Source of the DNA: Thermoplasmatota archaeon
GTDB lineage: Archaea > Thermoplasmatota > Thermoplasmata > Thermoplasmatales > Thermoplasmataceae
Direction of reading: 5' to 3'
NCBI GenBank assembly: GCA_023484105.1
Contig: JAMDBD010000030.1
Location: 1 to 64,000 of the forward strand
Length of the DNA stretch: 64,000 nt
In this document: piece by piece, positions 34,534 through 37,566 of the stretch
Position numbering within the stretch: position 1 is the first letter of the stretch
How the letters are laid out: the number at the start of each line of letters is the position of its first letter
The notes under the pieces: generated by a model
Database searches by the model: none
What the model was told of the DNA's origin: nothing
What the model saw: only the letters and a program-made list of their open reading frames with translations
Program-made: the position numbers and the translations under genes

Positions 34534-34909
34534 CATGGTCTCATCAGAGTAATAGGATGAGGCGCGTTCAGGTGTTTGATCGAACAATCTTTTCACCTCC
34601 AGCGTCCTCTGTCCGGATTTCACCTGTCCATGTTATTTAGAACCTGTATTTCATTGAATAACTCGCTGGTTTCTGAAAGAAAGATCTATTCATGTTTACT
34701 CGATCAGCTATTCTTTGCACAGACAACATTAGCAAGTGAATGCCTGACCATAATTATTCTGGAACAGTTCTTAGAGATATCCCTGCAGTTACAATATCCC
34801 CTGTTATGCCGGGACATCCATATAATGTTTGACGATTGGCAGACACAGTTTATCCAGAGAAATAGATTGTGTATGGAGAATGGCTATTGCCAGTTGATAA
34901 TGAAAAGTA
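34534..34909. other. Intergenic region, no gene supported
   Basis: The plus strand stays open from about 34576 to 34947, but the predicted protein is low in charged structure, has no known motif, no ribosome binding site, and runs into the inserted element at 34918. I treat it as non-coding. Confidence 0.4.
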
Positions 34910-34917
34910 AAAAAGAT

Positions 34918-35107
34918 GGATCTCTTTGGTCTAGTGGGGGTAAATGAACCCATTTTTCTTCTCAGTAGAGTCTGTATTTAAGCCCATAACACTTAGTTCT
35001 CACTGGACTGGCCTAATCATTAGTCAAACTTGTTTCCGAATAGGAATCTTGCTTTATCCGGATAAAATAGTATTCCTTTGCTTACCCCCGAAGAGTTAAA
35101 GAGATCC
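34918..35107. mobile_element. MITE-like element with terminal inverted repeats and 8-bp target duplication
   Basis: A 190-bp element. Its 26-bp ends match as inverted repeats at 18 of 26 positions: outer GGATCTCTTT (10/10) and inner GGGGGTAA (8/8), with a divergent 8-bp middle. It is flanked on both sides by the identical direct repeat AAAAAGAT (34910-34917 and 35108-35115), as expected for an 8-bp target duplication. Inside, at 35042-35077, AGGAAT and ATTCCT flank the perfect palindrome TTTATCCGGATAAA, giving a strong hairpin. It has no coding capacity, so it would depend on a transposase elsewhere. The family is not assigned. Confidence 0.75.
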
Positions 35108-35184
35108 AAAAAGATCATGAATGTCGCTGTCTGACATGTATTTGAATACCCTAAAAGTTAAAGATTGATTCGCTATCACTGAAT

Positions 35185-37566
35185 ATGAAAATAGAGAGTT
35201 ATGAAATAGAGCTTGATGTTGATTTTCCGCGTGCATTTTATACAGGAAAGGAAAAGATAAAACTGGAGGATGCAACAGAAAGCCTAGTTCTTAACTGCAA
35301 CGGGCCTGTGATTGACAGTGTAAGGATAGATGGTGCCACCGTTGAACATTCAGCAGGTGGAAGGAGTGATGAAATTATAATCGCAACAAAATCTGGAAAA
35401 TTTAGGGAGGTGGATATCACATTTCATGCTGAGATATCAAAGTCCCTGATGGGTTTTTACGCTGCAAGAACGTCAGACGGCAAGACTATGCTAACCACCC
35501 AGTTCGAATCAACGGGGGCGAGGATGGCCTTTCCATGTGTGGATGACCCAAGTGTGAAGGCTGTTTTTAAACTCACGCTCCGGATCGGCAGGGAATTTGA
35601 CGCAATATCGAATATGCCAGTCCTAGAACAAAAAGAGGAAGGGGAGAAAAAGCGGATAAAGTTTCATGACACACCAAGGATGTCAACATATCTGCTTTAC
35701 ATAGGCATAGGAAAGTTTGAAACGATGAAGGGAAAGTACAGGGACATTGACATTCTTTTCAGTGGTCTGAAAGGCTCCCTCGATTCAACAGAATTCCCAA
35801 TTACGGTTGGAGCACAATCCCTTGAATTTTTCGAAGAATATTTTGGAATAAGTTATGCTCTCCCGAAGATGCACCTGATCGCCGTACCTGAATTCGGGGC
35901 CGGTGCTATGGAAAACTGGGGTGCCATAACGTTCAGGGAAACCGCAATTCTCGTTAACGAAAATACGAGCGGAATAACGAAGAAAAGGGTTGCTTCTGTG
36001 ATCGCCCATGAGATTGCACACCAGTGGTTTGGTGATCTGGTCACGATGAAATGGTGGAATGATCTCTGGCTGAACGAGAGTTTTGCAACATTCATGATGT
36101 ACAAGGTTGTTGACAGGTACTACCCACAGTGGAACATAATAGGTGAAATGCTTCAGAGCAGGGCTTCAGGTGCACTCACTGACGATTCTCTTAAATCCAC
36201 TCACCCAATCAATGCAGACGTAAAGGATCCTGAGACCGTTGCGCAGATATTTGATCAGATAAGCTACGGTAAAGGTGGAATGATACTGCGAATGATCGAG
36301 AGCTATGTCGGTTATGACGTGTTCAGGGCAGGAATTCATGACTATCTTTCAAGGTTCTCATATTCAAATGCAACTGGTGCGGATCTTTGGAAGAGTATTG
36401 AAGAAAAATCAGGCAAGCCAGTCAGCAGAATAATGGAGGCCTGGATAAACAGGCCCGGTTATCCGTACCTGCAGGTGAGAAGAAATAGAGACAGGATAGA
36501 GATCACCCAACAGAGGTTTTACCTCGACGGTTCCTCTTCCGATGAAATATGGCCAATTCCCCTTTCCATTGTCAGGAAGAGCGGTGTTGAATCTGTGCTG
36601 ATGGATGATAAAAAGATGGAGATCAGCAGCAGAGACTTTGTCAAGTTGAATTTTTCTGAGACCGGATTTTACAGGGTGCTTTATGATGATTCCATCTACA
36701 CAGATCTTTTTTCAAATGTTAAGTCGCTTAGCTTCGAGGATCGATGGGGTATTGCTTCCGATCTTTTCGCATTTCTTGTTTCAGGACATATCGGCCTTCC
36801 AAGATACCTCGATTATGTCAAGAATTTCGAGGATGAGGAGGAGTTTGCCGTCGTTCAGGAGGTCGCTTCCAATCTTCAGCACCTTTTGCTTGTGAATCCA
36901 AAGAACAGCAGAATTAAACAGGTAGCCATTGACTTCTACCGCAGGCAACTTGAGAGAATGAACAGGAAGACTGAAAGGGATATTAACACGGGAATTCTCT
37001 CTGGAATGCTGAACTCCCGCCTTGCTGATCTTGATACGGATCATGCAGCCAGGCTTTCACAGCTGTTTTCTTCCATTGAAAAGCAGGATCCTGACATGAG
37101 ATCAGCCATCGCTATAGCGGCAGCCAGAACATTGAAAAAAATAGATCCAATGGTTGATAAACTGGCTTCACTGAAGAGTGATGAGGATCGTGTCAAGGTT
37201 ATCTCTGCAATGGGTATGATTCCAGGTGAGGATGCCTTTACCAAGGTCGTTCATCTGATGGATGAGGGGAAAATAAAGAAGCAGGACATAACCTCCTACT
37301 TCATGTCAATGGGCACCGAGCCTCTGAACAGAGATCTTGCTTTCAGAAAGTTCCCGGAGATAGTAAAAAGGATGAGCGAAGTGTTCATTGGTACTGGAAC
37401 TCCATCCAGGCTTGTATATCAGCTCACACAGTATATTGGCCTTGGAAGAATGGATGAAATGAAATCGCTTCTCGAAAGGATAAGATCACCGCTAATTGAC
37501 CAGGGGATCTCAAAGGGCATGGAGAGTCTTGCAGTGAATGAAAAACTTCTTTCAGTAATAAAATAA
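35185..37566 (+). CDS. M1 aminopeptidase, tricorn protease interacting factor F2/F3 type
   Basis: A 793-residue zinc aminopeptidase that trims peptides released by the tricorn protease/proteasome. The exopeptidase motif is GAMENWGAITFRE; the zinc site is HEIAHQWFGD followed 18 residues on by NESFATF, giving HEXXH-x18-E. DTPRMSTYLLYIGIGKF, and a C-terminal helical domain with GMESLAVNEKLL, resemble F3 of T. acidophilum best, though F2 versus F3 cannot be settled by eye. A second paralogue lies at 52.4 kb. The start ATG gives the expected N-terminus. It sits just downstream of the small mobile element. Confidence 0.93.
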   Translation: MKIESYEIELDVDFPRAFYTGKEKIKLEDATESLVLNCNGPVIDSVRIDGATVEHSAGGRSDEIIIATKSGKFREVDITFHAEISKSLMGFYAARTSDGKTMLTTQFESTGARMAFPCVDDPSVKAVFKLTLRIGREFDAISNMPVLEQKEEGEKKRIKFHDTPRMSTYLLYIGIGKFETMKGKYRDIDILFSGLKGSLDSTEFPITVGAQSLEFFEEYFGISYALPKMHLIAVPEFGAGAMENWGAITFRETAILVNENTSGITKKRVASVIAHEIAHQWFGDLVTMKWWNDLWLNESFATFMMYKVVDRYYPQWNIIGEMLQSRASGALTDDSLKSTHPINADVKDPETVAQIFDQISYGKGGMILRMIESYVGYDVFRAGIHDYLSRFSYSNATGADLWKSIEEKSGKPVSRIMEAWINRPGYPYLQVRRNRDRIEITQQRFYLDGSSSDEIWPIPLSIVRKSGVESVLMDDKKMEISSRDFVKLNFSETGFYRVLYDDSIYTDLFSNVKSLSFEDRWGIASDLFAFLVSGHIGLPRYLDYVKNFEDEEEFAVVQEVASNLQHLLLVNPKNSRIKQVAIDFYRRQLERMNRKTERDINTGILSGMLNSRLADLDTDHAARLSQLFSSIEKQDPDMRSAIAIAAARTLKKIDPMVDKLASLKSDEDRVKVISAMGMIPGEDAFTKVVHLMDEGKIKKQDITSYFMSMGTEPLNRDLAFRKFPEIVKRMSEVFIGTGTPSRLVYQLTQYIGLGRMDEMKSLLERIRSPLIDQGISKGMESLAVNEKLLSVIK

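Follow-up and report, generated by a model that had tools for sequence, protein, structure and literature searches.

A 190-bp gene-less archaeal MITE of a new element family, most likely moved in trans by an ISL3-family transposase

The intergenic region between the genes of an MFS sugar transporter and an M1 peptidase in a Thermoplasmatota archaeon, located within a 64,000-nucleotide stretch of DNA analyzed here as a whole (the window), contains a segment of 190 bp enclosed by short direct repeats. The question raised by this locus is whether a mobile element has inserted here and, if so, which transposase would have moved it. A reading of the sequence confirmed the perfect 8-bp direct repeats, as well as the agreement of the two ends in their outer 10 and inner 8 bases, on which the original prediction of a 190-bp non-autonomous transposon was in part based. 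Together, these bases account for 18 of the 26 positions of each end, and the 8-bp spacer that separates the outer box, GGATCTCTTT, from the inner box, GGGGGTAA, differs between the left and the right end. The segment carries no transposase gene, its longest stop-free stretch being 51 codons. A 123-aa open reading frame (34576-34947) runs into its left end, has no match in Pfam, and is probably not a gene. The coordinates of all features are collected in Table 1.

Table 1. Features of the 190-bp element, its surroundings in the window, and related copies elsewhere.
Feature	Position	Strand	Remarks
Left 8-bp target-site duplication AAAAAGAT	34910..34917	.	Perfect match to the right copy
190-bp MITE	34918..35107	+	Copies at C19 and C34, each 185/190 identical
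Left terminal inverted repeat GGATCTCTTT-GGTCTAGT-GGGGGTAA	34918..34943	+	ISL3 elements share both boxes and have a different spacer
Imperfect internal palindrome	35042..35077	.	Equalled by 17/500 shuffles; no conservation in relatives
Right terminal inverted repeat GGATCTCTTT-AACTCTTC-GGGGGTAA	35082..35107	-	27 bp identical to the end of the interrupted ISL3 element of G030
Right 8-bp target-site duplication AAAAAGAT	35108..35115	.	Sequence read
M1 aminopeptidase gene, downstream neighbor outside the element	35185..37566	+	PF01433, PF17900, PF11838; start 77 bp past the element
Close copy	C19:74625-74814		185/190 identical to the window copy
Close copy	C34:127124-127313		185/190 identical to the window copy
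Diverged copy	C3:112113		68% identity to the window element
Family B, a further family of 190 bp with ends of the same type	C6:6177 and C3:44528		
Family C	L049 3273-3463 and L051 1747-1936		

The further copies that were to be expected of a transposon are present in the same genome, two of them close (on contigs C19 and C34) and one diverged (on C3). At least three close copies of the element, including that in the window, are found there, and a profile search gives nine matches in this genome. The C19 and C34 copies have one and the same sequence, which departs from that of the window copy at five of the 190 positions; they are flanked by the perfect 8-bp duplications AAAAAGCT and AAATAATG, respectively, both unlike the duplication in the window. 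Since the same 190 bp recur at sites with different perfect duplications, the ends and duplications of the window element are not a product of chance. Thus, the prediction of a MITE-like non-autonomous transposon is borne out by a multicopy element with its own perfect duplication at each close copy, and the segment, as judged from its sequence, is a real gene-less passenger transposon of the MITE type. In the second family of the same genome, the family B copy at C6:6177 also has a perfect duplication, which reads ATTTTTCA or TGAAAAAT depending on the strand. The right end faces the start of the downstream gene in the window (C29:34918) and at C19:74625, C34:127124, C3:112113, and C6:6177, an observation made post hoc with mechanical ORF calls; the orientation toward neighboring genes is mixed for copies in other genomes.

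The original prediction also envisaged an empty site and an influence on the neighboring gene. An effect of the MITE on the promoter of the M1 peptidase gene is possible. At the loci examined for an empty site (window, C19, and the copy in genome G014), none that was exact to the base was found. In the C19 locus, 346 bp separate the upstream gene from gatD, a distance that would be 148 bp when computed without the element and one duplication. Two congeners, G003 and G001, have the same pair of genes close together and lack a C19-type insertion, at a divergence too great for a base-exact junction. The closest orthologue of the M1 peptidase gene (G004, 63%) is preceded by a different upstream gene, and because of this difference in gene order an empty site reading through AAAAAGAT is not demonstrable at the window locus. 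For the G014 copy, homology to the corresponding region of G030 stops short of the junction.

The nature of the transposase is indicated by the ends. In two relatives, G005 (the E-plasma scaffolds KI542675/KI542674) and G019, a search with the window element led to a transposase gene enclosed by a pair of matching ends. Thus, an insertion sequence with the same ends, which the original prediction had proposed to look for, is present in relatives, belongs to the ISL3 family, and creates 8-bp duplications. In G005 and G019 these insertion sequences are 1265 bp long, with ends of the form GGATCTCTTn-N8-GGGGGTAA, and their A/T-rich 8-bp duplications are perfect in all seven copies examined. The transposase of the sole copy tested, from G005, matches DDE_Tnp_ISL3, HTH_Tnp_ISL3, and Zn_ribbon_ISL3. 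One end of an ISL3 element of 1895 bp in another genus (G030) agrees with the window element's right end in 27 of 27 bp. A second transposase-like ORF appears to split the G030 element (L047 846-2740, on G030:C8), whose outer 8-bp duplication, ATATTTTC, is intact. The window element and the ISL3 elements have their ends in common, but not their interior. Additionally, the spacer of the left end (GGTTTAGT type), sought with at most one mismatch in 61 genomes, was found in MITE copies only and in no ISL3 element. Since both the interior and the left-end spacer are absent from the ISL3 elements seen, the window element is not just a known insertion sequence with an internal deletion.

These comparisons suggest that a gene-less MITE, inserted with an 8-bp target duplication, was in all likelihood moved in trans by an ISL3-family transposase. 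The element would have inserted between the MFS and M1 peptidase genes, with duplication of 8 bp of the target, and a DDE transposase of the ISL3 family, provided in trans, would recognize both boxes of each end, outer GGATCTCTTT and inner GGGGGTAA. It is the matching ends, as well as the duplications, that point to an ISL3 transposase as the enzyme that does the moving. No match to an ISL3 transposase (PF01610) was found in the genome of the organism itself, the assembly of which comprises 34 contigs and is 94.85% complete; the source of the transposase may have been lost, may have been missed by the assembly, or may have come from outside. Both this result and the confinement of the left-end spacer to MITE copies would also fit a driver from a different transposase family that likewise makes 8-bp duplications. 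Such a driver is improbable, since both conserved boxes, the 8-bp spacing between them, and the length of the duplication all agree with those of ISL3 elements, and since 27 of 27 bp at the right end agree with the end of an ISL3 element.

Relatives of the MITE extend across the archaeal family. Nine copies were used to build a profile from sequence alone; with partial and weak matches counted, it finds the element in 20 of the 77 genomes of the family, spread over 12 of the 19 genera. Full-length matches are mostly 183-193 bp long, with one of 208 bp, although the profile, having 191 positions, is biased toward matches of that length. Identity to the interior of the window element is 75-82% in G014, G030, and G029, and perfect duplications also flank the G014 copy and two copies in G083. 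Families A (that of the window element), B, and C have a common length and common types of ends; their interiors are only weakly similar. An exact pattern scan of the genome collection of the species gave no match, nor did a search of plasmids and phages for the element. Among viral contigs there were two pattern matches, with the next 200 bases unlike the element, and no relative of ISL3.

The conservation of the interior between genera, as well as the nearly constant length of about 190 bp, could also be explained if the segment were a conserved non-coding RNA, or a conserved regulatory element, with only a superficial likeness to a transposon. We consider this very improbable, as it is contradicted by the different target duplication at each site; furthermore, an alignment of 23 copies yielded no consensus structure, and searches found no tRNA and only chance-level matches in Rfam. 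The internal 36-bp hairpin that was part of the original prediction is located exactly where it had been placed, but is barely above chance and is not conserved in relatives. Of 500 shuffles that kept the dinucleotides of the interior, 17 gave a palindrome as good as the best internal one of the window element, copies outside this genome have no significant internal palindrome, and the folding of the whole element as single-stranded DNA is not unusual (z = -1.05). The hairpin was rejected as a functional feature on account of its marginal score and lack of conservation, and the palindrome probably has no function. A decayed, internally deleted ISL3 element, never mobile in its 190-bp form, would account for ISL3 ends without a gene but merits hardly any credence, since the interior is unlike ISL3 DNA and the identical C19 and C34 copies, with their different duplications, indicate that the 190-bp form itself has spread.

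With movement by an ISL3 transposase as the preferred reading, a broader proposal may be put forward as a speculation, which we regard as rather unlikely. MITEs of about 190 bp with their own left end might persist across many genera of one archaeal family while the source of transposase comes and goes and the transposases of neighbors spread them, with the fixed length and conserved interior under selection. If so, length and interior might be selected, for example, for the pairing of both ends by the transposase. The orphan state of the element in its own genome raises the question of the origin of the transposase, and the bipartite ends suggest which bases an ISL3 transposase reads. An archaeal family of ISL3-associated MITEs with defined ends, together with named scaffolds that carry the likely driver, should aid the annotation of genomes in this archaeal family.

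A literature search that covered few subscription papers found no description of this 190-bp MITE family. The element adds a new family to a class of transposons that is well known. Prokaryotic MITEs, including archaeal ones, have been reviewed (PMC10969869); among them, SM1-SM4 of Sulfolobus are present in 25 (SM2) to 44 (SM3) copies per genome (PMC10969869). Compared by description only, the window element resembles SM1-SM4 in being an archaeal non-autonomous element, with Sulfolobus belonging to another archaeal lineage. The ISL3 insertion sequences (E-plasma KI542675/KI542674, as well as those of G019, G003, and G030) have in common with it the bipartite 26-bp ends and A/T-rich 8-bp duplications, whereas they differ in their length of 1265 bp, in a transposase of about 400 aa, and in the left-end spacer and interior.

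In kind, the window element is ordinary; an ISL3-driven MITE of 187 bp has already been described in Microcystis. This 187-nt element of Microcystis aeruginosa PCC 7806 was attributed to ISL3 and is flanked by 8-nt direct repeats (PMC11448079). It has its ends in common with an ISL3 element of 1,215 bp and is mainly intergenic; its 9-nt ends match GGCTCTTCG, and 31-33 identical copies per genome are accompanied by an ISL3 transposase in the same genome (PMC11448079). The likeness to the archaeal element, drawn from the description only, lies in the nearly equal length, the lack of a transposase, the 8-bp duplications, and the ISL3-like ends, whereas the Microcystis MITE differs in being cyanobacterial, in its many identical copies, and in the presence of an ISL3 transposase in the same genome.
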